The notes below the pieces were generated by a model. The model was not told where the DNA came from. It did no database searches and saw only the letters and a program-made list of their open reading frames with translations. From Polytrichum commune (Eukaryota > Streptophyta > Polytrichopsida > Polytrichales > Polytrichaceae), in NCBI GenBank assembly GCA_950295325.1, contig OX485807.1, forward strand, positions 33,386,440-33,450,439: a stretch of 64,000 nt of DNA. Reading direction: 5' to 3'. The translations under genes and the position numbers were made by a program. Position 1 is the first letter of the stretch, and each line of letters begins with the position of its first letter. Shown one piece after another: positions 24,901 to 51,572 of this stretch.

Positions 24901-27900
24901 AAACCTACCAACCCTTACACAAAATGAACCATATACCTACTTAGGACTCCAACTCGTACCATCTCTAAAGTGGAACCTACAAAAAGACCTTACCCTCAAA
25001 AAAGCCAAGCAACAAGGCCAACTACTTGCCGCCTCCCCGGCAAGCCTAAAACAAAAGATCAAAATACTAAACACCGTCATAAAACCACGAATAGCATACG
25101 CATACTACGCGGTCCCTTTCTCAAAACCCGACATAAAAAAGCTAGATAAAGTCATTAGCAAAATCACAAAAGAAGCATGCCACATACCTAAAAGTACGGC
25201 CAACATCCTTACACATTTACCCCACGAACACTTCGGCATAAACGCCACTTCATTACTACCGGACTACATCCATTGCATTGGTCAACAATTACTACAAGCC
25301 CTTAACGACCCGGGACAATTAGGCACTATATACCAAGGCTTAACCAAATACATAACCGCCAAATATGGAGGCTCCCTACACCTACACAAACTCAAACAAC
25401 AAGCCTGCTCCCGATCCCCAATAGCACGCACCCTCTTCCTCCTTAACAAAGAATATGAAATACACATAACCACTGCAAATAAAACATTCCCCATCAAACA
25501 AACCCCATTAGAAACCGCATGGAAAGCCAACCCCGCATATTCCAACCTAACAAATATATCCAAAGCACAAACCCAAAAATTCCTAGACAAACTTTACACA
25601 TATGGTATTACAACCCTAACACAAATCCAAAACACAACCAACAAGGCCATACTTACCCCGGAAGAATTCCGAAATATATATAAGCATGCCCCCAAAACCA
25701 TAAAAGCGGCACTACAAGAAGCTCAAACATTCTTTCCCCATACACAACTCCCCACACCCCACATAACTCCCCCACTAGACCAACAAACAAACACAACCAA
25801 CATCCAACCCACACCACACTTACCACTCACGCTAGGACGGGCAATACACAAAATAATCAAAGAAAAAACCTCCACCCGAAAAGATAAATGGGGCGCGAAA
25901 GCTATAACCAAATCATATTTATGTCAATGGAAATACACAAATAACACCACACAACAATGGCGCACAGAAGAAAGTCTCCTACATCAGGACAACATCCTAC
26001 TTGACCACAATTTACTAACCATAACTCAATACCATAACACAACAACAAAACAAATAAACGAAAAAACATACGCTCACTACCTTACCTATGTCCAAACAAA
26101 AGATACTAAATTCATACAACCGCCACTAAAAATCACTAACCTCAAGACAACCATCCAAGAATGCAACCCTGATAAAGACATCCTAGTCAACAAGCCAACC
26201 ATACAAACCAACACATCGGAAGCCAATATCTACGACCACAATGGCCACCACGCAGCCACCCTTACCATTGAACGACTACAATGGTTATGGAACCAATTCT
26301 CGCACAACAACTCCCAACACCTAACCAACTTCTTACAACCACCCCCCCAAGACTTCGAAACGGAAATACTATGGCTCATTCAAAGATATATAACCATACT
26401 TCCCAAAAAGAAACCAAAAACAATTCTACCAGCTAACCTCCACCAAACACTACATCCAGACACTACCAAAGTCTTAATTAACTCATTTCAAATCACCCAC
26501 TCATACTACTCATCCCCCCTCACTTGCCCCATCCAACTTACACAATACAACTCACCACACAACCGAGACATCATATTCGGATCATCGGGACATGCAAAAT
26601 CTTCCAAATGGACAGGACGAGGCCTAGCTTTCCCCACGGACTACAACACAACCGTAGAAGCTATTCACTGGGCCAGAATGGCCGCCAAAGAAGATACAAA
26701 CACGGTCACCATCCTAATAGTCAACCATAACGACTGGACATCACACCAATTATCACTCGCCAATAAAGCCGATATACACGTCATGGCTACAATACCCCCA
26801 CACACCATACAATACAAACCCACACCCGAATGGCCAACATACTACCAATATGTGGAACCATCACTTACATCACTAATATGCATACACAACCAAACAACCC
26901 TAACCCCCAATACCCAAACCCCACACATGTTAAAACAAACCCTACTCCAAACAATAAAAACACGCATAGACACCCATCCCATCAACCCTACTCCCCTACA
27001 ATACAAAGTCAAACTCTCCAATGCATGGAAAACCGCCCCCAAAATACCCATAACACACATTAATAATCCCACCATTACACCCATACCAACTTCATATAAC
27101 CGCATCCACCCACTCAAATTCCACCCGCCCCAATGCGTATATACAGATGGCTCATTCATACCACCAACAAAAAATTCTGAAGGTCAAATAATAGGCAACA
27201 CCGCAGGATCAGGCGTCTATAGTCCTAACAACAACACACGCCTATCCGAAAGACTACCTGGCTACCAAAATATACTCCGGGCCGAACTTAACGCCATACT
27301 CATAGCCATCGAAAATATAAAAGTTACACAAACAGACATGCATTTATTCACGGATAGCCTCAACAGCATATACTTAATAAACAACCACATACAACATCCT
27401 ACATCTCAACACCATCATCCAGACAAACTACTCATAGCCGCCATAGTACGACAAATATATTGGACCCCATACCAAATTCACATACACAAAGTCCGCGCAC
27501 ACTCAGGCATTACAGGAAATGAAATAGCCGATGAACTCGCAAATATAGGAACAACCCAAGAAAAACCAACAAACACCCCACACATCCACACCGCCCATGC
27601 AACCCCATACTGGCTAGCCAGCTGTCCAACAGCCACACATGACGGCGCCATCCGCAACCTACGCACATTTATATCCAAAACACACGAATCCCAGGAAAAA
27701 ACTCTTGCCAACCACAAATTCCCATACGTCGCCAAATGGTTATCAAATAAACAAATAAACCAAAAACTCTCTAACCACTTCTGGCAAAATGACAAAATCC
27801 CAGACACCCAAATCACACAAACATTAAAATTCCGATACGCCCAATATATGGGAAACCATAGAAAAAACATATTCTGGCCCCTCACATACCAAAACCCTAA

Positions 27901-28564: not shown

Positions 28565-28800
28565 CAAAAACGGATTACTATGTGACTTACCCGAGCCCAC
28601 CTCCCACCGGAGGCATTAAAACCGTACACTGCATCACGGTACACCGTGATCAGTGCACGACAAACGGGCTCAAATTTACGCCGGTATTAAAATATGGGCG
28701 TTATTTTTTCTTTTCTTTTCTGGTGCAATGATTTATGTTAGAATTAAAATCTATTTTTGCGGTTGATTTGGTCTCCAAACAAGAAAACGGTAGAACCGTG
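28565..28800 (+). other. LINE 3' untranslated region with stem-loop
   Basis: Directly after the ORF2 stop, 28627-28655 forms a hairpin: CACTG, one bulged C, ATCACGGT, a 2-nt loop, ACCGTGAT, CAGTG. LINE reverse transcriptases commonly recognise such 3' stems. A poly(A) tail was not identified. Confidence 0.6.
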
Positions 28801-29632
28801 AGGCTCTGCTCTTTATTATGAAAGACTGTAATTGTAGTTGTCCACTTTACTCATGCCAATTCAAGGCTATTCACTATACCAAACCTTTCTTGGATTTTGT
28901 GCACCTTCTTCTCAAATACGGGTCAAGGATTGGAGCTACTCATTTATCACCCGAATTTTTAAAAAATAAAATAATCAAGAACTACCGAAATAACTATAGT
29001 TAACTAGATTTCTTTCAATGTATTTTAGGGAGCACTTATATATATAAACTATAATTAACATCCACATTAAATAAAGTGGACCAAAAATAACAAGAACAAG
29101 TAACGTCCAAGTGTGAACACAAAGTGGTTAGGAAATTTGCTCTTGAAACGAAGAAGTTGATGCATAGTCTTTGTCCTACACATAGAGCCAACAAACCACG
29201 AAGGACCCTGGAGTTTTCTGTGCAGACACTTTAATTTCAAGGAAAGGTTGGTCTATATGGCACGCCAATCTAACACGAGGTGCCTAGAGTGAAATCAACC
29301 AGGGGAGGGCACATCTTTCCTACAAAGTTGTTTTTCGTTAGCCTTTAATGAAAAGCAACATTCTCCTTTTTAAAGTTTTAAATAAAGTCAACAAAGCCCT
29401 AGGGGCGGGCACTAGCAAAAATGTGGAAAACATGTGCGTGAAAATATAAGGTGGAATTTTTTTTCAAGCAATAGCATCCTCTAAATGTAAATTTGGGAAT
29501 TGTGTTTGATGTATGGTGTGGTTTAAGTTGTGGTTTTTAAAAATTAGATGTAGAAAAACATAAATAAAATTAACTTCAGATTATTTATTTATAGGTTCAA
29601 CATAAATATTTTTCCATTAGTGACATTGGATG
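28801..29632. other. AT-rich DNA between LINE and hAT element
   Basis: No coding, RNA or repeat feature supported. The last 8 bp (ATTGGATG, 29625-29632) are the left copy of the hAT target duplication. Confidence 0.4.
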
Positions 29633-33425: not shown

Positions 33426-33508
33426 TGTGGGTGTTGTGGGCATTTGGATGGAAACAAATTCTTGAGCATTGAAGTTAAATATAATTGTCAACCTTCTATG
33501 TATAGATC

Positions 33509-35092
33509 ATGGGGAAGAGTAAGAGAAACGAGAAGCAAACAACCCTTGCAGGTTTTATCAAAAGACCGAAGGTGGATTTGAATGTCGAATGCAATGAGGT
33601 GGATGGAGAAAGTAGCCAAATTCCTAAAGAGAGTCACCAAGTGGAGAAAGAAAGTGCTACGGTGGTTCAAGGGTGTAGCAATTATGAAACTCTACCAGAG
33701 GAGCAAGCACTTATGCATATTCTAGACCATGAGGCAAATTTGGATGGGCAAGGGAGCATGAAAGCAAGAAATTATAGAGCGGAATGGAGATTCAAGTATC
33801 CCTGGGTAAGAGCTATTGATGTTTTGGGTCAAATTCGATTGAAGTGTATTTTTTGTGAGAAATTTCGAGCAAGTGGACCTTGGGGGGTGGAAAAAGGATC
33901 AGTGAATTTGCAGAACTCTGGATTGCTCAAACACAACTTGAGCAATCAACATATCTATGCCCGTACTAGATGGTTGGGTTCACAGGGGAAGATTGCAAGA
34001 TCAATGGAAACACATATGCAAGAGGCATTGGAATCTAGCAAGGTTAAGATCATTTCCTCTATAAAAATGATTTATTTCTTATCTTTGAACAACATGCCTT
34101 TATCTTCTTTCCCTGATCTCATCAAGTTTGGAAGATACATGGAAATGCCAAGCATTAGTGCAGTGAATGACTATGGGACTTACGAATATGCAGTTTCGGG
34201 TAGGGAATTTCTACTAGCCATTGCTAGTGTCCTTGAAGACAAATTGATTGAGGAGGTTAATACTTCTCCATTTTTCTCTATTATGGTAGATGAGTCCACT
34301 AATAGGGCTTTGGAGTCACATTTGATTACCTATATGACTTATTTAGAGGGTGATGGTATAGGCCAACCCAAAATACAATTCCTAAACCTTCAAGGCCTTC
34401 CAAATGGAACAGCAATATCCATTTTTGAAGCGTGGAAGAAGACTAGTAACAAATATGATTTGGTTCAAAGCCACCTTGTTGGACTTGCTACAAATGGGGC
34501 TGCATCTATGGTTGGTGTGCATGAAGGTTTTGCAACAAAATTGAAGAGAGAGGTCTTACATTTATTTAGAACACATTGCATAGCCCATAGAGAGGCATTG
34601 GCTTCGAAAGATGCAGTGGAAGCAATCACCCCTCTAACTTCATTGGAGAAGTTATCCAACAGATTGCATGGATGGATTGGGAAGTCTTTTTTGAGGAATG
34701 AAGTATTACAAGGTTTTTTAAGTATCATGGAGATAGGGCGCTTGAAGATGTTGCATATTCACAATGTGCGATGGTTGTCAATGGGCCAAGTAATGGAGCG
34801 GATGGCATCAACTATGCCAGCCATTTTATCTTGTTTTCGTGGTCCAAGTGGATGTGAAGAACTGTACCATGAGTTTCGATGTTATTCGGTTTTGTTTTTT
34901 ATTCACCTTCTTGCAGATGTACTTGGAGAGTTGAATACATTAAACAAGATTTTCCAAAAGGAAAACTTGGATCTAACTGAGATTGGAGATGCCATAGAGA
35001 TTACGACACGGTCTTTGTCAAGAAAATTCCTGGTGTATGAATATGAGGAGTTTGGTGCAGATACCAAATTTGTGGCACAATTTTTGGACATT
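33509..35092 (+). pseudogene. hAT transposase, N-terminal two-thirds
   Basis: Starts at ATG 33509 (MGKSKRNEKQTTLAGF). A BED-like zinc finger is formed by CIFC and H..H of LLKHNLSNQH at residues about 110-150. The catalytic region includes FSIMVDESTN (first Asp) and LATNGAASMVGVHEG, where the usual second Asp of the TDGA motif is Asn. HCIAHREAL and VRWLSMGQVMERM are conserved. The host frame is broken after codon 528 by the 15.8 kb element at 35093, which adds 14 foreign residues and a stop at 35137. The missing Asp means the enzyme was probably inactive even without the insertion. Confidence 0.88.
35089..35092. other. Target duplication CATT, left copy
   Basis: CATT precedes AACACTATATTCG here and follows CGAATATAGTGTT at 50913-50916. 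Confidence 0.8.
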
Positions 35093-35488
35093 AACACTAT
35101 ATTCGTTAATCGGAGACTTTGGAAAGTCTCAAAATAAAATACGCCCATAGTTTGGGATGCCAATATTGTGAACATATGGAACTTTGGGAACATGACGGTT
35201 TACAAATTCGCCCGCGAAGAATATTCACATTACTAAAAATAGTAAGTCTTCATATCATAACATAAACATGAACTACACGTGGAAAAAACAATCCAATCCC
35301 AAAATCAAATAGTATTATGTCATTATAAAGTTTAAGGTGTGCATCCCATATATAAGGGTCTTATGGGATTGTATGGCACATCCCAAACGTATTTATAAAT
35401 TTGAATATTATAAATTTATTATATAATAATTGCAATAATACCAAGTCTATAAAGTCCCCCTACATTGAGCCATTAAATCCAACTTATG

Positions 35489-38400
35489 TTATGTTTCCCC
35501 GTCTCCATATTCCGCTTCATATCCATTCTCGGCTTCATTTTCCACAGCTGCAATACGTGCCAGGTTGTCTTTGGCAAAATCTATATGTTTTTGGGGGATG
35601 GTCATTGTTTCCGATTTAGAGCCCTTACGCGGTTTCCAAGCACAAAGTATGGTATCCGTGTTTATCCAAACCGGTCCATATGCTGAGTCCACTGTCCACT
35701 TGAAATTCTTTTTGGTGTCCCAACCTAAATAGGTCCGGAGAACGTTCTGGTCTTTGGTGCTAGGACGGCAATATTCCACTTCAATTTGATGAAAGTTGGG
35801 GCTAGTTCGGATAAAATTGGGTGAAGACAATGCTTTCACCAACCAAATTGGCTTGGGGTGCTCCTCATCTCCTGCTCGTACGAGGACCATATACCCTTCA
35901 TGGCAATCAACACCCACACGAAACGACGGTGCCGGCCGATTGCGCGCAGGACCAACGTAATGCTCGTCCATTTCGAACTCTTCACGGACCTCTCCATTGT
36001 CAAAGAACATGGTGTCGGACTCCACAACCGTCAAACGACTTTGTGGCCAAAATCCTTGTGTCAAAGTTATACGTGTGTCGCCACCAAGTGTCATCAAGGC
36101 CGAGCGAATGCGATCCCAATACGCGGTCAACGGTTCATAAGTATTCCTAACACGTTTGGTGATGTCTTCCTCACACAACTCTTTCCAATATTCAATGAAT
36201 TCGGATATACCTTTGATGATTTCCGGCCCATTCTTCATGGGATCGGGTTTACAAGGCTTTGGATCCCCATCCGGGAGCAAACATTTTCCATCCTTGTTCT
36301 GACGCCACACGAGTATCCCATCCTCCGGACACCAATTAGGAGATGTGCACAAAAGCTTAAACTGCATAGCAGGGACACCATCATCCCTCATATAGAAGCG
36401 GAATTGTTGTGCTTTCGTGTGTCCCACCAAACGGTCGTCTCCCTTCAGCATGTATGGCTTGATGAAGGCCTTGAAATTTGGTACTTCCTCAATCATGTGC
36501 GGGATTACGGGCACATTGTCCAAATCCATGTATGATTTCATAAGAAGCGGTATGGTGGGAAAATCCTCTTCATGCAACTTCATGCTCCAACGTCCAAATG
36601 ACGCATCAATGTCATCGTGTGTGTGCCCCACCATCAAGAAAGACACAAACACCTCTTTGAATATGCCTTTTGCCACAAGCAATGACCAAAAACAAAACAC
36701 ATATCGACATTTATTGTCTTTAGCACAATTATCAAGTTGAACATGGAGAGTTGGAGGCAATGGTTTTGCACAAATGGGTTCTCCACGTGGTTCCGGCAAT
36801 GCCGACATACAAACCTCCTTCCCCTGAAGCACTGCCTCGTAAAGGGGTGTTGTTCCACAACCATCAAAAAGCGCACGGGAAGAGTGAATCGGTGGCTTCT
36901 CAAGATCGCGCAAGAGTTTTGCAAATGAACCAACCGTGTGGTTGGCATCGCCAGGGTAAAAATCCAAACCATAATGGGCATATTTAACGTTCCCATGGCC
37001 GTGGGCGATCATACCTGAGAAAAAAAAACGATGGATGAACAACAAAAATATGGTATAACCACTAAACAGACGGATGAAGTTTGACATATGACAAACAAAC
37101 CCAAAAACATTAGAAATCCTTTCAAACACATTTGTGATTCCATACGAACCTGTGACAGCTACGGGCAACTTGAAGAGACCATCCGTGGCTTTAATTTTGC
37201 GTGCATAACAAGGGCATGCGGTTTTGGCATGGTCCATTTTATCATGGATGACAGTTAGGACCTCCGCAGGCCTCATTATGGATAGTGCACGATTCTTGTA
37301 GTAATCTTGACGGTGTGCCTCCTGGTTGTTGACATGCTCAATGTATTTTCTTTGGTGTCTTGTATGGGACTCGGTGCCTATAGGATGGGCGTCTCGAAGA
37401 CCTTTGTACTTTTCACACGTCGTACACCTGGCAAACTTGTCCCCGGGTCTCTTCAAAATGTACTCTGCAAACTGTTGGTTTTTAATTACACTACACTCAA
37501 CTTGGACAAAGAAATGGGCCCACACCCAGCTTTGCGACCCACTTCGTTTATGTCCGTTAAGATGTTCTTCCATTTTGTGCCCGTGGGCAACACCATTTGG
37601 ACAACTTTCTCCCCGGAGGACAATGTCCTCGTCTTGTGGGGCATTGCATCGGCCAACGGGACTATGATGGTGGAGAGTGTCGCGGAGGCTTGGAGTGTAG
37701 CCTCTCTAGGTTTCTTGGTGCCCGAGTTGCCATGAAATCGAGAACGGCGTCCCAACAAAGAATACTTCCTAAACCTATAAAAATCAGCCTTGGAGACTGC
37801 ATGGATGGAATACCATGCTGTGCAACACACTTCCACATTCTCAAGGGTAACCACCTTATTGCCATGGCTGTCAACATGCAAATTTCTGTGGACCTCGAGT
37901 TTTTTTGCCGACCTCATACGAAAATCCGCAAGCCACATCTCTTGCCGAAGGGACCTAATTTTTTCACGCGGAAAGAATTGACAACATTTCTTCGCACAAC
38001 AGTCCTTTGTGGATACTTGACGGATAGAGTCCTCTCCAAGTATGGAATCCCGTCTACGTTCTTTTTGTATGCCAGACACACGACTAGAATCGTATTTGCG
38101 CAGACCTTTGCGAGGACGTCTTGCGGCCAACAAAGCTGACTGCGTTTGCTTGTGCCGTCGCCCATGATCCCACAAGCTTACTTCTTCATGGAGAACTCGA
38201 CGCAGGGGCCATCGCCGCAAGGAAAATCTCCAAGTCAACGGGACTTCCAACGGAAGTAAAGAATTCAAGATGCAAACGCCAACATCATCCAATCCAAGGG
38301 GGTTGGCATCAATACATTCAAGGGGATCGGAGTTTCTACAAATGCCATTTGCCACAGGGACACCATGCTCGTTCAGAAGAACAACATCAAGGCCCACCCA

Positions 38401-38652
38401 CTGCTCCCTCCCGAAACCGGCACACAATGGAATGTGGTCGTTATCATCCCCATAATGTTGGGAATGTTCCTGCCCTTCCAAAGATTCATGGGAGGATGTA
38501 TCCCCAGACACACCCAGGACGTTAGCCCCTCGAATATAATCCTCCGAAGGCGAAGAGAGGCGACATTCCGTATCCGACGACGATGCATTCGTCGACAACT
38601 CAAATGCACTATCTCCCATATCCATCGCAAACCCACCTAATGACGCGAACAT
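35489..38652 (-). CDS. DDE/DUF7869-like transposase of the 15.8 kb element
   Basis: The ATG at 38652 opens a frame (MFASLGGFAMDMGD) running to about 37510. The second part runs to a stop at 35489, with one GT-AG intron at 37149-37015. The N-terminal half is acidic, then has a Cys-rich segment (CCAKKCCQFF) and a conserved block EVCCTAWYSIHAVSK. The C-terminal half has FARCTTC, then the putative catalytic core: LDNC at about 36.73 kb, CRYVFCFWSLLVAKGIF, and MVGHTHDDIDASFGRW at about 36.62 kb. These match a widespread eukaryotic transposase-like family with RNase H fold (DUF7869, from memory). Around 37500 the two halves are in different frames without a convincing intron, so a frameshift may have disabled this copy. 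Total length about 1010 aa. Confidence 0.7.
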
Positions 38653-39030
38653 GGAATCACAACATATATAAGTCAATCACAAATACAACAAGATTTTAGT
38701 AAACCTAAGTCACAATAGAGCACAAGTCACAGTGGGAATAACAGAACGATCGTCTGCATGCAAACACGCTTCTGTTTGAGTTGGGCATATATACGAACGG
38801 GAGTTCGAATGTTCCCCGTCATTCTGTATGTCAACTAAAACATGGACCGTTTCAATTGTGCAGGGATACCTGTTATATGCCTACACATAACTTCCGAGAG
38901 TCATTGACGCATATGAATGTATTATTCCATGTGCCCCAAATACACATCCCTCGCCCATACTATGTGTATGTGGAGCAAATGGAGCATTTTCCCACATCCC
39001 GCAGTCAATGTCCAGATACATTCCCTGAAT
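38653..39030. promoter_or_regulatory. Upstream region of the transposase gene
   Basis: About 380 bp between the transposase ATG and the palindrome array. It includes one half-decayed palindrome (ACGAACGGGAGTTCGAA, about 38792-38808). No TATA box could be assigned with confidence. Confidence 0.35.
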
Positions 39031-39034
39031 GAAT

Positions 39035-39880
39035 TCGAACGCACGTTCGTATTTATGTCTAATATTTTGTTGTAAATACATATATATTTGTGTGCGTGCC
39101 CAGGGAGGCGTGATGTATGCATCGACATACTCCCAGGTGGAAATCACGAACGCACGTTCGTAAACTCTCGCTCATCTTATGTATATCTGCTGAAATCATT
39201 GATATTTTCGACCTTCTGTTTGCAAATTACTATCGTATTGTATTTACATCTTCATACCCCTTATATCCATGAGTATATGGATTCTGAAAATAAGCGGTGT
39301 CACTTACGAACGCACGTTCGTAAACTCTAATGTCATTTCAGTATGTACCATACACCGTTTACGCGCATTCAATATTTACGAACGCGCGTTCGTAAACTCT
39401 TGCACATTCCCAATGTTCTTCGGATGCTCAAAATGTACATTTACGAACGCTCGTTCGTATATGACTTTCATATTGTTTGTGCCTATGCATAATCGTATCT
39501 GAGTCTATACATTTATGGATGTAAAATATACGCCAAGGCGGTATTTACGAACGCACGTTCGTAAACATCCAACCAACCTCGATATATCTCATCCACAAAC
39601 ACATGCGCGCACTGAAGGTTTACGAACGCGCGTTCGTAAACTCTTGCACATTCCCAATGTTCGGCGGATGCCCAAAATGTACATTTACGAACGTTCGTTC
39701 GTATATGACTTTCATATTGTCTGTGCCTATGCATAATCGTATATGGGTCTATACATTCATGGATGTACATATATGCCAAGGCGGTATTTACGAACGCACG
39801 TTCGTAAACATCCAACCAACCTCGATATATCTCATCCACAAACACATGCGCGCACTGCAGGTTTACGAACGCGCGTTCGT
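39035..39880. repeat. Palindrome array A: ten copies of ACGAACG-NN-CGTTCGT
   Basis: Cores start at 39036 (first base changed), 39146, 39306, 39378, 39443, 39547, 39622, 39687, 39790 and 39865. Nine are exact at all 14 fixed positions, usually extended to TTTACGAACG NN CGTTCGTAAA. The central pair is CA, CG, CT or TT. Each core carries four or more CpGs in otherwise AT-rich DNA. The array lies upstream of the transposase, 0.4-1.2 kb from its ATG, and resembles an operator or binding-site array. Confidence 0.9.
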
Positions 39881-39885
39881 AAACC
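39365..39885. repeat. 244-bp tandem repeat carrying three palindromes per unit
   Basis: CG-type cores at 39378, 39622 and 39865 are spaced 243-244 bp. CA-type cores at 39547 and 39790 are spaced 243 bp. The DNA between them (CATCCAACCAACCTCGATAT, TGACTTTCATATTGT) is repeated as well. Confidence 0.85.
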
Positions 39886-40254
39886 CCCGGTATTTGCGGC
39901 GGTATTTGCGGGATAAGGTTGTCTGCCACCTATGAGTGTACGGTTCACGCACAGGAAACTGGCTCGAGCGCCCTCCGTCGGGTGTCTGGAGCGCACACTT
40001 GGTGTCTCCCGCAAAAAAGAGCTCTGCAATGGGGGGGAGAGCTTTAAGTACTCCTCTACCGTGGTTCAAAATCCCTTGGATTCTCTTTGAAAAGCGGATT
40101 CCCGCCGCCTACTTTAACCTAACAATATGCCATTCTATTCATGCGGGACATAAATAACTTTCTGTATTGAATATGTATGGCATGCACGCATTGATAATAT
40201 GTTCATCCGTTCCACACCTTAGGTGTTACCAAGGTTTCCCGAACCAAAAAATAA

Positions 40255-40510
40255 AATGTATATTCCTATATACATATCGATGTATATATTTACTTATATT
40301 TACATATATATATATATATATATCTTTGTATATATGTAAATATATATCTATATATATCTATATATGTGAATATATATCTATATACCTATATATATATGTG
40401 AATATATATCTATATACCTATATATATGTGTGAATATATATCTATATATCTATATATATGTTTCTTACATATATCTATACTTTACATATATATACATTAC
40501 ATGTATCTAC
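40255..40510. repeat. AT-rich satellite-like tract
   Basis: Irregular tandem copies of TATATATCTATATACCTATA TATGTGAA, with (AT)n. Short frames across it are artefacts. Confidence 0.85.
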
Positions 40511-40867
40511 ATTACATTTATGTACATTATTGCGGCAAATACTCACCAAGTGCATGAACACCAATAAAAAGTCTGGTGAATTCATGCAAGCTACTAAGGT
40601 AGATTAAGGAGATGAATTCAAACCATGCCTAGATATACTTTATATCTTAATTCAAATGCAACTCCAGGTTTGCAAATAGTGAATTGATTCAACATTGTGT
40701 GGAAATGTTGAATTAATTTGGAATGGTGCATAAGATAGTGTAATGATATGAATTGAAACCATACCTATATGGAGTCCCACTTATGCATTGTGTAATTAAA
40801 ATGCACTCAACACTATTAGGTTGGATCACAACATTCCTCCATATAGTGCGGATGGTAAAAAAAACTA

Positions 40868-40894
40868 GGGGTTTAGGGTTTAGGGTTTAGGGTT
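40868..40894. repeat. Interstitial plant telomere repeat (TTTAGGG)n
   Basis: Four consecutive GGGTTTA units inside the 15.8 kb element. Confidence 0.85.
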
Positions 40895-41119
40895 TGTGAG
40901 GGATGTGCATGTCCAGTAGTTCATATAACAGGGTTTACATACAAACTATATTCACTACTCATAAATCCATATTGCACTAACTTAATTTATTTGTAGCTTA
41001 CATTTGATGCGAGCCAAACTTTCAACGATCACCATATTCTGTAATTGGGGACATTTTCATGATTTTGGATACTATTTCAGAACATGGTATTCAAATAAAG
41101 AACAAGTAAAACACAAGAA

Positions 41120-42145
41120 TACATTCAATGTGACACAATAAAGCGATTTGCATGGGCAACACTAACCAATTTGGCACAAATACATCTCATCCGAATAATA
41201 ATTTGAACCACATATTAAATCATTTGCATTTATTTTGAGACTTTCCAAAGTCTCGGATTAACAAATATAATAATAAATTTAATGCAGTAGTTCAAGTTCA
41301 CACATAATAAACTGAATTGAAAGCCTAGTATTTGAAATTGAATTTTCCCGCACCTCTTGTAAGAAAATCCTAAACCGTTCCCACCAATCTTAAATCGGGA
41401 CCTTTATGGATCTTATATTAAATTATTTGAGGAACCATTTAAAAACTTGAAAGATATTTCAATTATGAGAACACTATATATTTGAAAACACCATATTAAT
41501 ACACATCGTTGGGGGTAGGGTTTTCATCGAATCCCTAGTACATGATGTGCAATGTGGAAATTGAATTCATACTCCTTATCTAGAAGATGTTTACAATGAA
41601 TCCAAAGTAGATGAAGGGGATGTAGCATTTAAAATGCATGTTTTGTACTGGACTCCTTATGTTTATGTGATGGAGGCATATACATATTAAAAAGCTTGAA
41701 ATTAACGTGCATTTATTGCTTATACATCCAACTTAGATTATTTTCGTTAATTAGAGAGTTATCATTATATTCCGCAATTGGAGACTTTTTTATGATTTTG
41801 AGACTACTTAAGGACATGTTTTTCAAATAAATAACAAAGAAAACACAAATATATATTCAATGTGACTTAATCAAGCGATTCGCTTGGACAAAATTGACCA
41901 ATTTGACACAAATACATGTCATCACAATAAGAAATTGGACTAGATATTAAATCATTTGCATTTAATTTGAGACATTCGAAAGTCTCTGATTAACGAATAT
42001 AGTGATAGTTGGGAAAGTCTCAAACTAAGTGCAAATGGTGTAATATATAGTTGCATTTCTTATTGTGATGACATAGATTTATGTCAAATCGGTTAGTGCC
42101 CCCCATGCAAATCACTTTATTAAGTCACATTGAATATATTTATGT
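41120..42145. repeat. Internal copies of the element's terminal sequence, partly head-to-head
   Basis: GAGACTTTCCAAAGTCTCGG then ATTAACAAATATA at about 41240 is nearly the inverse of the left terminus of the 15.8 kb element. A second copy (AAAGTCTCTGATTAACGAAT then ATAGTG) ends near 42004, followed at once by the inverted GGAAAGTCTCAAACTAAGTG. Flanking blocks (TTCAATGTGAC, ATTAAATCATTTGCATTTA) are repeated in both. These look like ends of related non-autonomous elements, or scars of a composite origin. Confidence 0.65.
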
Positions 42146-42179
42146 GCTTTGATTACATTGAATTACTAAACCCCAATGA

Positions 42180-42430
42180 ATTCCAACCCATCCCCCCCAT
42201 CCACCCATCCACCCATCCCACACCCCATGCTATCTCCCCATCCCATCCCCTCATCTTCCTAGCCCGACCCATCCCTTCCCTCCCCAATGGGAAGCGGCCA
42301 TGTGGCAGCCCGAGGGAAAACCCTAGAGGCGCGGGCTACCTCCCCGCGCCCCCTCCTCTCCTTCCTCATTCTCATTTGGAGCAGAGAGAGGAGGAGCGCC
42401 GCGTTGGTTTAGAGTTTAGAGGCGAAGCTC
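42180..42430 (+). promoter_or_regulatory. Probable promoter and leader of the DGQHR/HAD gene
   Basis: A sharp switch to C-rich then GC-rich DNA: repeated CCATCCACCCATCC, a telo-box-like AAAACCCTAG, a CTCCTCTCCTTCCTCATTCT pyrimidine patch of the kind seen around plant transcription starts, then GAGAGTT-rich leader repeats. Confidence 0.45.
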
Positions 42431-43031
42431 TTGCATTTTTTAGTTTTGTGTGGTGCACTTCTTTTGTAGGCGCAAGTGTTGAGAGTTATTGACAGTCCCT
42501 TGAGAGTTGCAGCTCAAGAATAGAGAACTCGAGTTAGAAGAGTTGAAAGTTGGAGAGTTTAAAGTTTATAGAGTTTAAAGCTTGAGAGTTGGAAGGCTAA
42601 GATTAGGATACTCAAGCTATAAGCTTGATAATTGCAAGTTTTAGAGTAGCAGCTTGAGAGATACTGCATTTGAAGTTGCATATACATCAGAGTCTTAGTT
42701 AGGGTTTGTACATAGCATGCAACAACTAGTGTGAAGGCAATTTCAGTGGTGCAGTGGTGCATTTGACTTTCAAATCACCTTGCTTTTGTGGGGTTTCCTG
42801 GGGTTTTCAACAACGGAGCAAGCAGCTTTTGGGTGTGTAAAATTTCAGAGTAAGCACAATATTCCTTCCCTTCTCAAATCCTTCACAGTCTATATTTGTT
42901 CATTATTGAATGGCATGTGTTTTGGAAGTCAAGTTCGGATCCTCGTTCTGAATTCTCTGTCACATTCCAAGTCTATATGTTTTGATTGTATTGTTTTTCT
43001 TCAATCTCACCTTTCTGACGAACACTTGCAG

Positions 43032-43079
43032 GCACAAGTGCAAGCTTTGTTGAGACACAGCAAGCAAGACCTTGCCATA
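43032..43079 (+). other. Possible small non-coding leader exon
   Basis: Acceptor CACTTGCAG before 43032 and donor CATAC|GTATGT at 43080 bracket about 48 bp. The following intron to 43693 carries palindrome array B. Confidence 0.35.
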
Positions 43080-43178
43080 CGTATGTATACGAATTCGTAT
43101 ATATACGAATCCGTATATGTACGGACACTATATTGTTATTATTAATTATATATATAAAAACAAACAACAGGCTCATTT

Positions 43179-43659
43179 ACGAACGAGCGTTCGTAAATAC
43201 CTCTACCGCGCACAATATACACCCATTTACGAACGCGCGTTCGTAAATGCATAGGCCGCGCAAAATATATACCATTTCACGAACGCGCGTTCGTAAAGAT
43301 TCTTTGGAACCCAAGGACTACGTTTACGAACGTGCGTTCGAAACTCTAAATCCAAAATGGAGGGATATATCCATGCTGTAATTCATATAAGTACTTAAAT
43401 CCAATCACAACACTAAATTTAACTCAGTAGGTTCTACAATATCACATGACTTTACGAACGCGCGTTCGTATAGTTATGTACAAAATACTAATAAACAGGA
43501 ATCTCATATTACGAACGCGCGTTCGTGAAAGATGTGAACCAATGTGAATGCATTAGAAACACCCTGAAATGCATAAAGCATTCAAAACTTCGTATTTCCA
43601 AAAACCACACTATGAAAATAATATGCATGGCACGGTGTTGTTTACGAACGAACGTTCGT
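43179..43659. repeat. Palindrome array B: seven copies in the 5' intron
   Basis: Cores start at 43179 (AG), 43229 (CG), 43279 (CG), 43326 (one mismatch), 43454 (CG), 43511 (CG) and 43644 (AA). The first four are spaced 47-50 bp. The last sits 35 bp before the splice acceptor preceding the start codon. Confidence 0.9.
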
Positions 43660-43693
43660 AAAAACAATTCTGATTTGCTCTTGTGTGATGCAG

Positions 43694-46600
43694 ATGGCTA
43701 AAGCTAACAGAAACGCCATCGACTTGTTCGCAGTGCCAGTGGAGCGCCTTCCAGAGGGCGTCTCGGATACCAATGGGAACGACAACTATGTCCCAAAAGA
43801 AGAATTCATGGCTGAGTGGACGGCCATCCCCACGAAGACCGAGGAAGGGTTGTTTGCATTGCGATTCACTTATGAGCTGCAGACAAGGGCTGACCAACCA
43901 GACCAATGGGTGCAGACAAAGAATTGGGAGATAGAATCCGCAGAGGCACAAGGAGACTTTGTTATTCTGGATATGAAAAATAAAAAAGACCATGTGAACC
44001 TCCTCTTAAACTACCTATTGCACCCATTCTCTTATGCTTATGCATGCAATAATGTCGCATCCGATGCGAAACATTTCAATCTGGATGCTCTCTTCACCAA
44101 ATATGCCCTGAGTCAACACTGGACGGCGAGGAAGTTGACTGCCCTGACCTTGAATGTTTCGAAGTACAACAGTGTTGCCGCGGAGGCAAATAAAAAAAAG
44201 AAAAGTCCGAAAAAACCAGCTGCTTCGGGGGCAGGAGGATCGAGAAGTGCTCCGCGGCCTGTGCCTTCGGGGAGCAGGTTGACAGAAGGGCCCAGCAGAC
44301 AATCCACTCCATCCAAGAGGTCGAGGGACGAGATGGAGAAGTCCGGATTGACGGAAGGCGCTGAGGTTAGTTCTCCTCCAGTGATGCCAACCCCTTTGAA
44401 GAAGGGAGAAAACCCAGACGCTGCCAAAGCGACAAAAATCCTTCGAGACTTCAACAACTACTCCAAGGATTGCTGGCCTATGGGACGCCACTTCACTTTC
44501 AACGTGGATTGTTTCAAGTGCGAGAAATCTCCTAACAAGTGGGTGGTGAGGTCTCGTGAAAGCGGAGGGGTGAAGTGGCAGATTAATAACCTCATGAACA
44601 ACGTGAAGTGGGATAGGCAGACCGTCTGCGTGATGCCCAAGGGTTTTTTGTCACGCCCCACTGAGAAGGATTGGCCAAGAATCCAGAATGGAGAGTTCTG
44701 GATAATCGATGGACAACACAGTCTAGAGGCGTCACAGATCATCCTAAAGGATGATAACTTCCAGCACGAGCTCAAGGCGGACCTGCGCTACTGGAAGGCG
44801 TTTTTGGTTTGGTCTGACGACTGGGACAAGCTCCGCAAAATATCGACATTTTTGAATTCCGGAAACAAGATCAAGGCATTCGAGGCCTCCTGGGCGGCGA
44901 ATATAGTGGCGGCCAGAGACGTGTGGGTCGCGCACGGATGCCCGCCAAAAGAGAGGGAGAACGCCAAGACGCAATCTCCACAGTGGAAGGTGAGTTTACG
45001 AACGAGCGTTCGTAAAGCATATGTTGCATTAAACAATTTCTAAATTTTCCAACTTACGAACGCGCGTTCGTATTTAGTATTGAACACTGACGTCCTCGTA
45101 TGTATGTTGCAGGCGTTCTGTGATGCGATGGTGGACAAATTCTCCTCCATCGACATGAAGTCCACAAGCACCAAATCAGTTCTGGAGCTCAAAGATGAGC
45201 TCCGTCTGATTTGCTGCAACAGAGACACCTGGGAGTTGTGGACCCAGTTCTTCGACGCTCACAGCTCGGGCGATCTGGTGAACCCAGACACAGAAAAGAA
45301 GTACGCTCAAGAGAAGAGCGGAGAGGCTCCGCCTCTACTGCGGGAATTTTTTAGGGCCCTGCAAGGACTGACTGAATCAGAGTTGCAGCGATGTGCGGTT
45401 CACGTTCTTGGGAACACCGTCGGAAGGACCATCCCTTATCCCAAGATATTTTTGAAGAGACCAAAGCACAAGCCCGGCACGTACTCGATCAAAGAGTGGT
45501 GCGACCACAGGAAGCTGAAGACCGCTGCGATGCGGGAGATTAGCGGCCTATTGCCTGAGATGCACCTTTTCCAGGCCGACGAAGATATCAACTGGGCGAA
45601 ATGGAAGGAGTTCAAGGCGCTGTACAATATCAACGGTGCCTCAATGCGCAGCCTGGTGAAGGAGCACGTCGCCGTCCTGAAGCTCAAGGGAAACAAAAGA
45701 GCAAAAAAAACAGAAACGGAACCTGAAGAGCTTCAACGGTACATCTCCTTCTTGGAGAGGAAGAGGAACGCCACCTTCGAGGGCGTGGCAAGATTTTGTG
45801 TGGTGACCACGGGGCTGGAGAGGACCACGTTTTCCAAGTGGGATGGCACCTTCAGCAGGTCCGAGGTCAGGGAGGATCGAAGGGGTTGTCCCTTCGCGGT
45901 CATCGACTTCAGAGGGATACCCGGTGCCTCGCGACAGGGCGCGAAGGGGGAGCCTTTTTACAACCCTTTCATGGCGAGATTCATGGAGCACAAATCTCCG
46001 ACCATGAGGGAGCCGCACGTATGGCTGTGGATTGTGGAGCAGGAGAAGCAATCCGTCGTCATCGATTTGTATGAGAACAAGATCAAGTTCGAGTACAACA
46101 TCTTCCACAGCACATACGTGCCAGCGAAGACGGAGGGAATTGTTGCCGTAAACGAGGCCAGAGGCAATAGGCAGGTGGGAGCGGTGAGCCTCATCTTCTT
46201 GACGTACAATGCGCTTAGGAATGGGCGAGCACCCATAAAGGCGATCAACACATTCAAGAAGATATACAGCATCCCTCACCCACCTCCAAAGGATCTCTTC
46301 CAGGAGACTCTGTACACTGTCTTCCCGGCGCTGGAGCTGAGGATGGAGTTCTACGTCTCCATATTGCAGGGTTTGGCAATGATTGGCGAGACTGTCTACA
46401 ACGTATTTGGAGGCAGCAAATTTATGTACGCGGCCATGGTAAGCCATCTCACACCACTTTTTACGAACGCTCGTTCGTAAACACTGCATGCTCCAAACAA
46501 TTTACCATGGGCAGCCGATACTTATGATTGTTTTGTTAATTGTTTTTTTATTATTTCCTCGCTCAAAGCCTTCATGTTTACGAACGCGCGTTCGTAAATG

Positions 46601-49428
46601 ACTGAATCTTTGCCTTCTTATCTCAGATGCTGGGGCTGTGCGTGAACACATATATTGACGCCGTCGACGAGGAGGATTACAAGTTCCACAGGACAAAAGC
46701 GTCGACGATGGACCTAGCTGACATGTCCGTGCCCAGAACAGACTTCAACATGCCGGCCGAGGAAGGCATGCCGCCCATGGAAACAGACGACGACGAGCCT
46801 GGCCCCTCCGTCAACGTCGATGCCATCCTCCAGGCTTTGGATGTCACTCCTCTCCGGTTGTTGGCCCCATCGGCGGAGCCTTCAGAATACCAAGGGACCC
46901 CGGCTGGATGTACTGGATCCTCGGCGGGTGCCACCCAGGATGTCCTCCCCGCGCTTACCTCAGGCGCGAAGCCCTTCGGCACGCCAGGAGGTTGTTCGAC
47001 GTCAGTGTCCCCCAAGCAAAGGCTGGCGGTCCCGAAAATGGAGACCCTCGATGTCCTCGACCAACGCTCCCGTCCCACGTTGGACCTGTTCCGCAACACG
47101 CGACGGAGGATGAAGAAGACCCCGTACGTGGAGTTGCCCGAGGGGGCGATCATCGAGGTCTCCGACGAGGACGAGGGGGACATTGACATTATGGTCGAGC
47201 TTGGGGTGGAGTTCGACAAGAACAAGAGGGTCAAGGAGGAGGCCCTTTCCGTCGCCGAGCTTAACGCAAAGCTCGAGCAGAAGATGAAGGAAGACATGGC
47301 TGCGGCTGCAGAGGAGAATGCCCGGAAAATGAGAAAAATTGAGGAGGAGCTGAAGTCCTCCAACGAGAAGACGGACGCCATACTGGCGATGCTGACCAGG
47401 CTGCAGAACTTTGCAGTGGCCCCTCAGGCAGCATTCCCATTCCCTGCGGGATACCCCATGCACGGTCCTTTCCCGGGAGGGCATTCCTACCAGCCAGCGC
47501 CCCACCCAACGCCGGTGGGGACTCCTCCACCCCCTACAATGCCCACGGACACCGCCAACATACACGACGCAATCTCGGCGGCTATCCGTGAGGACGAGGA
47601 TTTACGAACGCACGTTCGTGAATCTTCAGGTCCAACAGTCCTCACCCCACCCCCACCAAGGGTAGGACTGCCTTCACAGACGGACACGGCACCTTTCACC
47701 GTCGTCCCCAGTTTACTAGATAGGACAAGGGGCGATGATACTGCGCGACACACTGACTTGGTCATTGTGGAGGACACGCAGGGGAGCCCGAGTGACACCG
47801 CAGGCGTCCAGAGGATGGACGTCGAGGACAGCCCTGCGGAAGACCGACATCCCCCCGCATGCATTGGGGACGTGCACATGGAGACTCTCGACCTGGGTGG
47901 CGAGGAGGACGACATACAGCAGACCCATACGTCTCAGGCGGCGCGTGCTGACGACGTAATGGAGACTGAGGCACCTGCGGCGGCGGATGTGACGAACGCG
48001 CGTTCGTTAATCGCTGAGGAGGGAGCTGCCGCTCAATCCAGCGCCGCTGCCCCTCCCTCCGATGACGAGGTAACTCATCTTTGAGATTACCGCATGCATT
48101 TACGAACGCACGTTCGTAACATCTCTAACCACATGCGTTGTGTTTTTGGCGCGTTGTATACATCGGCATCCGAAACCTCCGATAGCCCATTTTTGCGTGC
48201 TTCCTTAGGTCGACCAGTTTTGTAGGACACGGCATCTTGTTGCCCTAGGAACCTGTACGATAGATTATCATCTGAGACAAACTGTAAATTTTCACGGAAT
48301 TCATATAAATGAAACATTTTTTTGCATCGAATCGCGTCGTCTCGCATTGGTTGTTTTGTGTATGTTCATGCGGGTTCAAATCTGTTGTGCATTTCTGCCT
48401 CGTTCACGAACGGACGCTCGTAAAAGGATGCCACCCCGCGACCATCTCCTTCACGAACGCCCGTTCGTAAATGCACTATAGGGTTCATTCACAAATGAAC
48501 GTTCGTGAATGGTGCGCATGGTCACTGCTGGCCTTTCACGAACGATCGTTCGCAAATGTACCCTTGTTCTCGCCCTTCGTCTTTTTCCATACTGCATCTT
48601 CATGTTTGCTAAATTCTTTATTGGATCATAGCATTAAACTAGTCGAATTGTTAATCACAGGACCCCCCGGAGATAGGTCGCAACCCCTCCACGAGTGGAC
48701 CTCAGACCCGAAACAAGCCGTTCATCGTGTTTGACCTCAACGGGGTGTTGTGTCACACCGAACACATCCCGAGGGTCCCCACGCGTCCCTTCCGTCACCC
48801 CGACGAAAGGGACTATGACGGCAAGCTCGACACCCTAATAAACCGCAAGGCTGTCCGCGCCCGTCCCGGCTTGCGGGACTTCCTTCGCGAGGTTGTCGAG
48901 TTCGCCCACGTCATTGTGTGGAGCTCAATGGTCATGGAGAACACGGAACCCATCGTCGACTTCCTATTCCGTGATCTCCCGAGCCCTTGCCTTGTCCTCG
49001 GGCAAGAGGACTGCGATGAACTACTCGACGAAAAGGGTCTACCGGTTCCCAAGTTCGGCGGCCGAGGCCGAGGGCAACAGTTCCTCAAGGTCCTAAGGTC
49101 CAGACTTTGGCGCGGCGTCCCCCGGCTTCAGGGGACCCCCCACGGGTGGTGGCCTACTCCGGAGAACACCCTCCTGGTCGACGACAGCCCCGCCAAGAGC
49201 GTTTTGAACCCCCCAGGCAACGTCATCTTTCCCGACACGTGGACCGGAGATAGGAAGGACGCATTTTTGGTCGATGCGCTAGCGCCGTACCTTAGAAGGC
49301 TTGTCCTCCACGCCGGTAGCATCCCCTTTTTTGTTAGGTCCAACCCCATCGGCAATGCGGGACTAAGCCCCCGCGATAATGTATACAAGAGCATCATGAG
49401 GCTCGCGAAATTTAATAAACTCATTTGA
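43694..49428 (+). CDS. 1610-aa DGQHR (ParB-like) / coiled-coil / FCP1-like HAD fusion protein
   Basis: Exons 43694-44989, 45113-46438, 46627-48069 and 48661-49428, all GT-AG, phase 0, lengths divisible by three. Exon 1 has a basic patch (KKKKSPKKP, about 168) and, at about 333-400, WIIDGQHSLEASQII and YWKAFLVWSDDWDKL. The former matches the DGQHR signature of DndB/ParB-related proteins, with Ser replacing Arg. Exon 2 (about 433-874) is conserved-looking but unassigned. Exon 3 has an acidic region, a coiled coil (VAELNAKLEQKMKEDM, about 1080-1135) and Pro-rich linkers. Exon 4 is a HAD domain of the FCP1/NIF type: VFDLNGVL, VIVWSS, LLVDDSPAK. The second motif-I Asp is Asn, so phosphatase activity is doubtful. 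I infer a nuclear, element-encoded protein. Palindromes fill its introns. Confidence 0.75.
44990..45112 (+). other. Intron 1 (123 bp) with a palindrome near each end
   Basis: The donor GTGAG is followed within 8 bp by a palindrome (core 44998-45013). A second (45056-45071) lies 41 bp before the acceptor TTGCAG. The copies are self-complementary and complementary to each other. Confidence 0.85.
46439..46626 (+). other. Intron 2 (188 bp) with a palindrome near each end
   Basis: Cores at 46463-46478 (24 bp after the GTAAG donor) and 46580-46595 (31 bp before the TCTCAG acceptor), the same layout as intron 1. Confidence 0.85.
47604..47619 (+). repeat. Palindrome inside exon 3
   Basis: ACGAACGCACGTTCGT, translated in frame as part of DLRTHVRES. 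No splice sites bracket it convincingly, so it seems to be coding. Confidence 0.75.
47992..48007 (+). repeat. Second palindrome inside exon 3
   Basis: ACGAACGCGCGTTCGT, translated as TNARSL near the end of exon 3. Confidence 0.75.
48070..48660 (+). other. Intron 3 (591 bp) with five palindromes, three decayed
   Basis: Cores at 48102 (exact), 48416 (one change), 48453 (exact), about 48491 (CGAACG changed to AATGAAC by transitions) and 48538 (one change). The changes look like CpG decay. Confidence 0.75.
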
Positions 49429-49602
49429 AATATCTTCATGTATGTGCGTGTTATCATTTGGTTCACATATCTAACGCTTCATCCGTTTTTGGATGTCTTT
49501 GTTGTCTGTGTTGTTGTTGTTATTGTTGTTGTTCCCCATAGTTTGCCCCCATATGTGACGCCCCCGTCCTCCACGGCCTTTCCCGTCCCCCCTCGTCCCC
49601 AG

Positions 49603-50510
49603 GCTCCCCTTCCCGCGGCGTGACGTATTCCGTGATCCCCTCACTCTACCACTTCTCGGCGGTGGATGCAGCCTCGGCCGTGGACTACTCCCGGGACGTC
49701 GACGACGGTGTTGTCAACAGCCCGCCCCCCAGGGTTGTCCCTCGGGCGTTCGCCCCGTCGCCCTCCCCCCTCTCCAAGGAGAAGCGGACGCTCGTTCGTT
49801 TGGGGCATGTGTCGCCCTCGAGGGACGACGCCATCGCTCGTCGTGGGCCGAGCCGACGTCTCCACCTGGAAGCAACCCGGTGCGACCCCTCCCCCGTCGT
49901 CCCCGTTCCTCCTCCTGCAAACCCATCCCCGGTCGTTGGCCCTCCTTGCCATGCTTCCCCCACATTACTGAACAGTGCCGCAATTCAACCGGATTCGTAT
50001 GCTCTCCTCGACGCCCCCATCGTCCCCGGGATCGATGTCACCAAATCCAAGGTGCCCTTCTTTGTCCCTAAACCCATATTCACCGTTGCTTTCCTCTTTG
50101 TCTGCGCGTGCCAAGAGCTTTACGAGCGCCCATCCCAAACCGCCCTTCCTCATTTCCCCACTCCGTTCTTATTATTATCTTCCTATGGCGTTTTTTGGCA
50201 GGTGGCTCCCCGCTCGCTTGGTGGCCAACCCTCCTCGACTTCGTCAGTGCCAAGGCACGCCCTCAAGGCCGCATCTTCCGAGTCCGATCGTTCTCTGGCC
50301 CTCCGGAGAAGCGCAAGACGTTCCCTTTCGCAAACGCCCTCGTATTCTACTTATAATACCACCTCGTACAATTCGGGAGCGCGTCCTGAAACATGCAAGA
50401 ACGACACATATTCCTTTCCAGGCAACACACAAGGATACAGTCGTGGGCCTGAGATTTTTAGAGCCATGGAGGCCGCCCAAAAAAAGGACTTAGCCGCAAA
50501 AAAAAAATAG
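49603..50510 (+). CDS. Pro/Ser-rich frame after the HAD gene, possibly an alternative C-terminus
   Basis: A frame runs from an acceptor-like CGTCCCCAG (exon from 49603) to a stop at 50510, with an in-frame GT-AG intron at 50052-50201. It could join a donor at about 49318 in the HAD exon (CACGCCG|GTAGCA, phase 1), replacing the last 36 residues, or be a separate gene. It encodes RGVTYSVIPSLYHFSAVD, then Pro/Arg-rich sequence and a Lys-rich tail (AAQKKDLAAKKK). A degraded half palindrome (GGACGCTCGTTCGT) is at about 49797. No family recognised. Confidence 0.4.
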
Positions 50511-50912
50511 TGGGTCGGACTAGTGTGACTAGAAGCGTACTAGTGGGACGGACTCCCTAAATGGGCTTAGGTGTAGAACATATTTAAGTGCTTACTTTCT
50601 ATGCTATTCCAAGTTACTCAAGACATTGATGGTATTTCCATTATAATTGTATTTCTATCCCAATTAATTCATTCAACTTCCATTCATTCTTCGCATCTTC
50701 CCTTCCATTCATAACGAGTTGTCATTTCATACGCAACTATTTTCATGTATGCCTCACATTTTTTTTCACTTCCATGCCTTTATGTATAATAATAGTAGCA
50801 TACCATTATACATATGGGATTTTTAGTCGTCATTACTGGTCCAATTTTGAAATGTGCATCCTTATATAGTCTCATAATCAACAAAAAGTCTCCAAATACC
50901 GAATATAGTGTT
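50511..50912. other. Right terminal region of the 15.8 kb element
   Basis: AT-rich, no gene. Ends AAAGTCTCCAAATACC then GAATATAGTGTT, the inverse of the left terminus. Confidence 0.75.
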
Positions 50913-50916
50913 CATT

Positions 50917-51572
50917 TCTAGAGGTGGTGAGATCCATTTTCAAGACTCTACAGGAGTGGTGCATTCACATATATTGCATTATGCACCATTGCCTCATGCA
51001 ATTGAGTTTGGTGGTGCAAGGTGATTGCACAGGCCTATGTGGTTAAGGTGATAGAATCATTGCAGCAACGATTTCCTGATTTGAAGCTCTTCAATGCAGC
51101 TAAGCTATTTAGCCCTGTCTGTTTTTCAACAGACTTGACACTTCTTCATCGAAATGCTCGTTTATGGCTTCAGAGTTTCATTGACCACTTCTGCACTAAT
51201 GGAGGGAATCTTTTTGATGAGCGTGGTTTAAAATCAGAGCTTTGAGGTTTTTTGGATACACTTCATATTTCATGTGGTGGTCTTAAAATGCACCAAGCTT
51301 GGATGGTTTATTCTTCCAATTTGGACTATGTTGGAAGATATCCTCATATGACAAAGTTGTGGCAAGCTGTTCTTGTAATTCCTGCTAGTACAGCTTCTTG
51401 TGAGAGAGGATTTTCTACTCAAAATCATATTAAATCTACTTTACGGTGTAGTTTGGTATTAGAGACTTTGGAAGCACAAATGAGAGTTGCAATGGCAAAA
51501 ATCCCCATAGAGGCCATTGACTTTGAACAAGTATGGGTAAAGTGGTGTGCTATGAAAGGCCGCCGCTTGTAG
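50917..51572 (+). pseudogene. hAT transposase, C-terminal third
   Basis: Resumes in frame directly after the CATT duplication (SRGGEIHFQDSTG), continues to about 51018 where a frameshift occurs, then VVKVIESLQQRFPDLKLFNA, a TGA at 51243, and finally the hAT dimerisation domain (VLVIPASTASCERGFSTQ, LETLEAQMRVAM) to 51572. The domain order and the N-terminal half at 33509 show that this is the same gene. The frameshift and stop add to the missing catalytic Asp as signs of decay. Confidence 0.9.

Follow-up and report, generated by a model that had tools for sequence, protein, structure and literature searches.

Dispersed family-specific palindromes in a DNA transposon of Polytrichum commune are candidate binding sites of an element-encoded protein

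A CpG-rich palindrome, ACGAACG-NN-CGTTCGT, recurs in the non-coding parts and, twice, in an exon of a DNA transposon in the window, the 64,000-nucleotide stretch of Polytrichum commune DNA analyzed here. The sites have a fixed geometry, are conserved among copies of the element, and differ in sequence in related families that share its gene plan. We postulate that they are bound by a dimer of one of the element's own proteins, likely the product of its second gene (gene 2), and that this binding probably serves anti-silencing self-recognition; we give this reading a probability of roughly 0.55. An earlier note on the same DNA had suggested binding by an element protein, with escape from silencing as one option, and the spacer, the conservation, and the palindromes of other families favor that proposal.

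The transposon (family F1) occupies 35093-50912 (15,820 bp, or 15.8 kb), the bounds drawn in the earlier note. Its inverted ends, AACACTATATTCG and CGAATATAGTGTT, are flanked by 4-bp duplications and were checked against copies with unrelated flanks. The target duplication is CATT in the window copy (35089-35092 and 50913-50916), and a second copy, at C4:40154999, has TTTG/TTTG; the duplication rests on two of the four copies examined, those with both ends readable, the left end of a copy at C5:45647450 having been searched for and not found and that of a copy at C4:36926385 lying outside the piece compared. Gene 2 exon 1 of the C4:40154999 copy is identical to that of the window over 432 aa, yet the flanking DNA differs, from which we infer a recent move of the element. 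CACTA/EnSpm transposons have CACTA ends and a 3-bp target duplication; the F1 ends read AACACTA but the duplication is 4 bp, and membership in that group was rejected. The element interrupts a hAT-type transposase gene (33506-35137 and 51246-51572, with zf-C17orf113 and Dimer_Tnp_hAT domains) and is thus a nested insertion.

The transposase gene (35492-38676) lies on the minus strand. Its main open stretches are 38676-37489 and 37705-35492, a small intron is predicted around 37010-37150, and the product matches DUF7869 (PF25273; E = 3.4e-40). Gene 2 is placed divergently on the plus strand; its four exons, as predicted from splice signals, together give an open frame of 1,610 aa. Exon 1 (43694-44989; 432 aa) and exon 2 (45113-46438) were drawn from the open frame and splice sites, exon 3 (46627-48069) is a low-complexity linker, and exon 4 (48661-49428) encodes a NIF/FCP1-like phosphatase domain (aa 1377-1570). 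The match of exon 4 to PF03031 (NIF) is above cut-off (E = 8.8e-14; 51.9 bits versus 21.8), and a Pfam scan of gene 2 gave nothing beyond NIF above cut-off. The end of exon 1 (aa 240-432; 44411-44989, plus strand) encodes a domain with the motif IIDGQHS, here called the GQH domain (alignment A1). Between gene 2 and the right end there is a further plus-strand open stretch of 322 aa (49542-50510), which matches no Pfam family and contains one decayed palindrome (49784).

Other features of the window were seen alongside these genes. Internal stretches at 41108-42150 repeat the element's own terminal sequence, resembling nested short non-autonomous copies or end remnants, and a short plant-type telomere repeat, GGGTTTA (TTTAGGG type; 3.9 copies), lies inside the element at 40869-40895. 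At 17001-29000, the GC skew is −0.31 to −0.64 in 11 of 12 1-kb steps, the exception being 19001-20000 (−0.07), and the AT skew is positive.

The window contains 23 exact and seven decayed copies of the palindrome, as the earlier note stated. Exact copies span 39146-48468, compared with a mean of 0.00 in 100 dinucleotide shuffles; with up to three mismatches allowed there are 31 matches (38793-49799; shuffle mean, 0.90), comprising the 23 exact copies, the seven decayed copies, and one match (39683) that overlaps an exact site. The claimed confinement to 35093-50912 stands, with zero matches elsewhere in the window at this threshold, as does the placement of the copies upstream of the transposase, in the 5′ intron, in later introns, and twice in an exon. 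The array upstream of the transposase (38793-39880) has nine exact (39146-39880) and two decayed copies, and that in the putative 5′ untranslated intron of gene 2 (43179-43659), an intron predicted from sequence, has six exact copies and one decayed. Introns 1, 2, and 3 hold two exact copies each. Those in intron 1 (44990-45112) lie at 44998-45071, the first of them a few bases past the splice donor, those in intron 2 (46439-46626) at 46463-46595, and those in intron 3 (48070-48660) at 48102-48553, along with three decayed copies. The two copies in exon 3 (47604-47619 and 47992-48007) lie in stretches encoding EDLRTHVRESS and DVTNARSLI, respectively. The spacers between copies, described earlier as unrelated, are not all so: the upstream copies at 39378-39621 and 39622-39865 form a direct duplication (about 95% alike) and a 50-bp tandem repeat in the 5′ intron includes three palindrome copies.

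The genome-wide count that the earlier note had proposed gave 5,602 exact copies versus 4 of the reversed pattern. The 100 genomic places listed of these 5,602 all fall at 0.64 to 2.47 Mb of contig C1 in six clusters, each of which holds F1 elements or fragments, identified by gene 2 exon 1 matches in three clusters and by sequence matches in three (L019, L020, and L021). To judge from these clusters, the palindrome is part of the element family among the 100 places listed. L019 (C1:638000-647999) is a deletion derivative with 33 exact sites, in which a 49-aa transposase remnant and exon 4 were the only coding remains found. The 5′ array of L019, at 6984-8148 of the locus, has expanded into tandemly repeated palindromes with units of 160 bp and 34 bp.

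The geometry of the palindrome was compared across 13 F1 loci (the window and 12 further copies, 10 kb each). These contain 211 exact sites, in which the half-sites are always spaced 2 bp apart; none occur at spacers of 0, 1, or 3 to 24 bp in the 13 loci. The F1 consensus is TTTACGAACG-NN-CGTTCGTAAA, with a free center. Exon 1 is 84 to 100% alike among the copies compared, and the palindromes occupy the same intron and exon positions. Both intron 1 sites are recognizable in all 13 copies (22 of 26 sites exact). Of the 12 other copies, 10 have the exon 3 site at 47604 in the same place (exact in 8, with a single mismatch in 2), and 10 likewise have the site at 47992 (exact in 9, with a single mismatch in 1); both are thus present in 11 of 13 F1 copies, with one mismatch in 3 of 22 sites. 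Two copies, L008 and L010, are uninformative on exon 3 because both break off in exon 2.

Conservation in the introns was measured in 12 F1 copies (the decayed L010 was omitted), or 11 for intron 2. Palindrome columns, whose labeling by content tilts the comparison in their favor, are 94.8% pairwise identical (9,507/10,029 comparisons) versus 57.5% for other intron columns (22,079/38,393) and 57.6% for the two center bases (823/1,430). CpG retention, under the same labeling, is 93.5% inside palindromes (4,966/5,312) versus 30.3% outside (624/2,060). The cleanest comparison comes from intron 1 alone, where the two sites have fixed positions: 99.4% versus 60.2%. On the strength of these alignments, we consider that the F1 palindrome is under selection; retention of CpGs inside the sites would fit either selection or protection from methylation.

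Thousands of copies in a genome might also be expected of a tiny palindromic mobile unit, as the earlier note had suggested, or of an ordinary host factor site. That copies as little as 84% alike in exon 1 have their sites at the same intronic and exonic positions speaks against a mobile unit, and extra copies arise with local tandem duplication; the idea was dropped. All 100 places listed fall in F1-family clusters and related families carry different palindromes (see below), which makes a host factor site unlikely as well. Taken together, we regard this pair of explanations as extremely improbable.

The palindromes could in principle act as RNA, their stems forming hairpins in transcripts that affect splicing, decay, or small RNAs. 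The gene 2 sites are presumably transcribed, and the first intron 1 site lies about 9 nt (F1) or 12 nt (family F7) past exon 1. Within a family, however, the sequence itself is fixed, beyond what pairing would explain, and the 61 distinct one-mismatch gene 2 sites (including 20 C>T, 15 G>A, 8 T>C, and 8 A>G) show no clear bias to G-U-keeping changes. A search of 35000-51000 against Rfam gave no match. With no clear strand bias in decay and no Rfam family, we rejected RNA hairpins as a very improbable explanation.

Binding by a protein, the reading that we prefer, gains from the comparison of families. A genome profile search with DUF7869, in which 150 of 1,491 candidates were scored, led to family F2 (L022/L026 and L023/L027), whose transposase shares 43% and 37% identity with that of the window in its two main parts. 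The window palindrome was not found in the F2 loci. They carry the palindrome CCACGGGTG-NN-CACCCGTGG, with 15 and 14 copies at no more than one mismatch (12 and 11 exact) and five more copies further downstream in the second locus. These sites lie upstream of the transposase, before gene 2, in gene 2 introns and an exon, and in a transposase intron, where F1 has none. The F2 gene 2 domain has diverged (VNGQHT; 22.7% identity over 291 aa, E = 2e-7), and genome-wide its palindrome has 819 exact copies versus 0 of the reversed pattern.

Searches with the F2 protein and a third protein exposed more families, from which 11 gene loci were sampled (L028 to L035 and L040 to L042); family counts from the protein searches are to be read as “at least,” with 90 to 150 copies scored of 806 to 1,090 candidates. 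F7 was found beside an F3 gene. The half-site, up to the 2-bp center, is CCCACGGGCG in F2b (L028 and L029), GGTTCCTCTCG with variable inner bases in F3 (L030, L032, and L033), TTCCACTCG in F4 and F5 (L031, L041, and L034, the last with three good sites only), CTTTCACTCG in F6 (L035/L036), TTTGGGTCG in F7 (L037/L039), and CTTCCTCTCG in F8 (L040 and L042). The F7 palindrome has 9,731 exact copies genome-wide versus 0 of the reversed pattern, the highest of the three counted (F1, F2, and F7). There are seven distinct 9-bp half-sites, or eight if one base further out is counted. The palindrome code is not unique to each lineage, since F4 and F5 share the inner 9-bp half-site, as do F3 and F8. Counts of each motif in each family (two mismatches or fewer) are almost block-diagonal, with overlap between sister families only. 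At C1:61419900-61433700 (L032/L037), F3 and F7 genes lie side by side, each with its own palindromes and the motifs unmixed.

Shuffled loci repeat one palindrome at most twice. Repeats were present in all eight loci from L028 to L035 (3 to 15 copies, L034 being the lowest) and in all three from L040 to L042 (8 to 9 copies), versus at most 1 in 50 shuffles for each locus. A first repeat statistic, which drops two-letter half-sites, missed F2b and F3 (the inner bases of F3 vary); a second statistic detects both.

The families share a plan. The transposase, of DUF7869 type, is divergent from gene 2 in F1, F2, F6, and F7, the families examined in this respect, and palindromes lie upstream of it in all four. 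The NIF domain was found by Pfam in F1 and by tblastn with the window's exon 4 in F7, F6, and F2, the families in which the 3′ part was examined. Palindromes of all related families have a 2-bp center and occur at matching places. Every sampled family has at least one copy with sites directly after exon 1, although there are none at that place in L029 or the rearranged L022/L026. Because CG (TG in F2) borders the center in the half-sites, the palindromes look like versions of one ancestral site.

Among nine representatives, the distance between GQH domains correlates with the distance between 9-bp half-sites (Mantel r, 0.895; reached by 3 of 20,000 permutations), which shows that protein and palindrome change together in these sequences. 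Shared ancestry alone would yield a correlation of motif and domain, and co-divergence cannot tell which protein binds, because the transposase shares the element's descent and diverges along with it. The DUF7869 transposase is 37% to 64% identical to that of the window in other families and so tracks the palindromes, as would be expected if they were its own binding sites. The distribution of sites makes this distinctly unlikely. The window element has no palindrome (at three mismatches or fewer) in its left 3.7 kb or right 1.1 kb, where the transposase must act, and there is none in the 6 kb containing the F6 transposase. Two further DUF7869 loci (L024 and L025) have neither a detectable gene 2 nor an array in the 8 kb examined of each, where gene 2 could lie beyond the 8 kb and L024 repeats one palindrome twice.

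Of the gene 2 product, the transposase, and a host protein, we favor the first as the probable binder, because the element ends carry no sites and because an array is absent from the 8 kb examined of each of the two loci in which gene 2 was not detected. Weaker evidence in the same direction comes from L012, L016, and L018, in which the GQH domain is 95 to 97% like that of the window versus 84 to 85% for the whole of exon 1, in step with an unchanged palindrome; exon 4 is likewise conserved among F1 copies. On balance, it is somewhat more likely than not that the GQH-NIF protein of the element binds the palindromes.

Binding could also serve ordinary self-regulation, with the sites acting as operators for the gene 2 protein or the transposase and host silencing left unaffected. 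Palindromes with fixed spacers are common among operators. Arrays lie upstream of the transposase in F1, F2, F7, and F6 and also toward the 5′ end of gene 2, and introns together with the promoter side would suit autoregulation equally well. However, sites occur also in later introns and exon 3, and in L019, a derivative without most coding sequence, and more than 20 sites per element seems beyond what operators need. We therefore find this explanation quite unlikely.

What the GQH domain is related to can be approached through its motif. G101, Q102, H103, R47, and N149 are invariant in all 14 domains of alignment A1, from which L029, L041, and L042 were omitted on account of a stop within the GQH region. 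The DGQHR/DndB/GmrSD and ParB/Srx group is characterized, in the available text of its description, by the motif (I/V)(I/V)DGQ(H/Q)R and a further conserved R and N (PMC4619093). The likeness lies in the GQH motif with conserved R and N; the difference is that the residue after [DN]GQH in the aligned members is S or T instead of the R that this source describes (PMC4619093). The earlier note had called the product a DGQHR protein, a name that the motif resemblance supports but no curated model does. GmrSD_N scored 13.5 bits on the window domain, below its cut-off of 33.2, and E = 0.056 to 0.078 in 2 of 14 members, with unrelated families equally good in the same scan. PF14072 (DndB/DGQHR) and PF03235 (GmrSD_N) had 0 matches in the genome; of 14 control genomes, 2 and 9, respectively, gave matches. 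Searches of the GQH region gave nothing in NCBIfam and unconvincing best values in PHROGs (E = 0.32), Pfam (E = 0.056 among 14 members), and PADLOC (E = 0.031 in 1 of 14 members); the best hit of a PDB profile search with the domain was an unrelated protein (E = 0.14). An AlphaFold model of the window domain from the single sequence had a pLDDT of 35. Exon 2 sequences across families contain stops.

We treat “ParB-like” as a possible lead for the GQH domain. In bacterial-style partition, parS sites are palindromes of similar size, and the domain looks like the DGQHR/ParB-Srx group, so the palindromes might be pairing or segregation sites of the parS/ParB kind. It is not evident, however, why a chromosomal transposon would need partition; neither the window's gene 2 nor its GQH domain matches a ParB model in Pfam, and no partition or restriction partner was seen in these elements. 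Such a role has only the slightest probability.

Returning to binding by an element protein, we envisage the following. A dimeric protein, most likely the gene 2 product with its GQH domain and NIF-type phosphatase, would bind the two-fold symmetric site. The palindromes would be retained through the element's non-coding parts and would multiply through local tandem duplication, allowing the protein to recognize its own family along the element. The bound element might then be kept open or be reactivated against host silencing, perhaps through the phosphatase, as with VANC on VANDAL elements; the phosphatase suggests action on the transcription machinery. In related families, protein and palindrome would have diverged jointly, presumably without cross-recognition now. 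An effect of anti-silencing or activation has, in our estimate, somewhat less than an even chance. A more specific version is that a ParB-like GQH domain joined to an RNA-polymerase-II-type phosphatase loads on the CpG palindromes of its family along the element, shields the element from cytosine methylation and silencing, and splits transposon families by joint change of protein and palindrome, which would constitute an orthogonal self-recognition code in a eukaryotic DNA-transposon superfamily; we offer this as a rather unlikely speculation.

If the protein does bind, one genome contains at least seven diverged palindromes along with their proteins. This would be a ready set for studying transposon self-recognition and the joint change of specificity in protein/site pairs, and the pairs would be candidates for sequence-specific epigenome tools. 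It would also test whether anti-silencing by dispersed motifs arose independently of VANDAL elements, the only ones from which, to our knowledge, it is known. A literature search of open-access papers found the VANDAL/VANC work and nothing recognizable as this palindrome system.

Among known systems, TnpA of En/Spm binds many short subterminal repeats of the transposon that encodes it and counteracts methylation; those repeats are near the ends, whereas no sites occur at the F1 ends. Fungal DNA transposons that carry a TET/JBP dioxygenase have an accessory enzyme proposed to allow escape from silencing by DNA methylation (PMC12730594). They resemble the present case in that several DNA transposon lineages would have an accessory enzyme against silencing, and differ in that catalytic demethylation is proposed and the available text of that report mentions no dispersed cognate motif (PMC12730594). 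The closest known system is VANC in Arabidopsis, which, as far as the accessible parts of the source describe it, is a transposon-encoded protein that binds a short motif dense in the non-coding parts of its own VANDAL family, with accompanying loss of methylation; the motif spreads via tandem repeats and differs between related families (PMC5735166; for VANDAL/VANC anti-silencing, see also PMC10398659 and PMC6446971). F1 shares with it a short, family-specific motif that is dense in introns and other non-coding parts and spreads in tandem, and related element-encoded proteins paired with different motifs (PMC5735166). It differs in that a few sites are exonic, and in that its motif is a 20- to 22-bp palindrome with a fixed 2-bp center. 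VANDAL elements, moreover, are Mutator-like and their VANC proteins carry DUF1985/DUF287, which a Pfam scan did not find in gene 2, whereas F1 combines a DUF7869 transposase with a GQH and NIF gene 2. The sequence-level traits of VANC/VANDAL are matched here with different proteins and a palindromic motif. The best reading is a VANC/VANDAL-like self-recognition system, probably anti-silencing, in a different transposon lineage.
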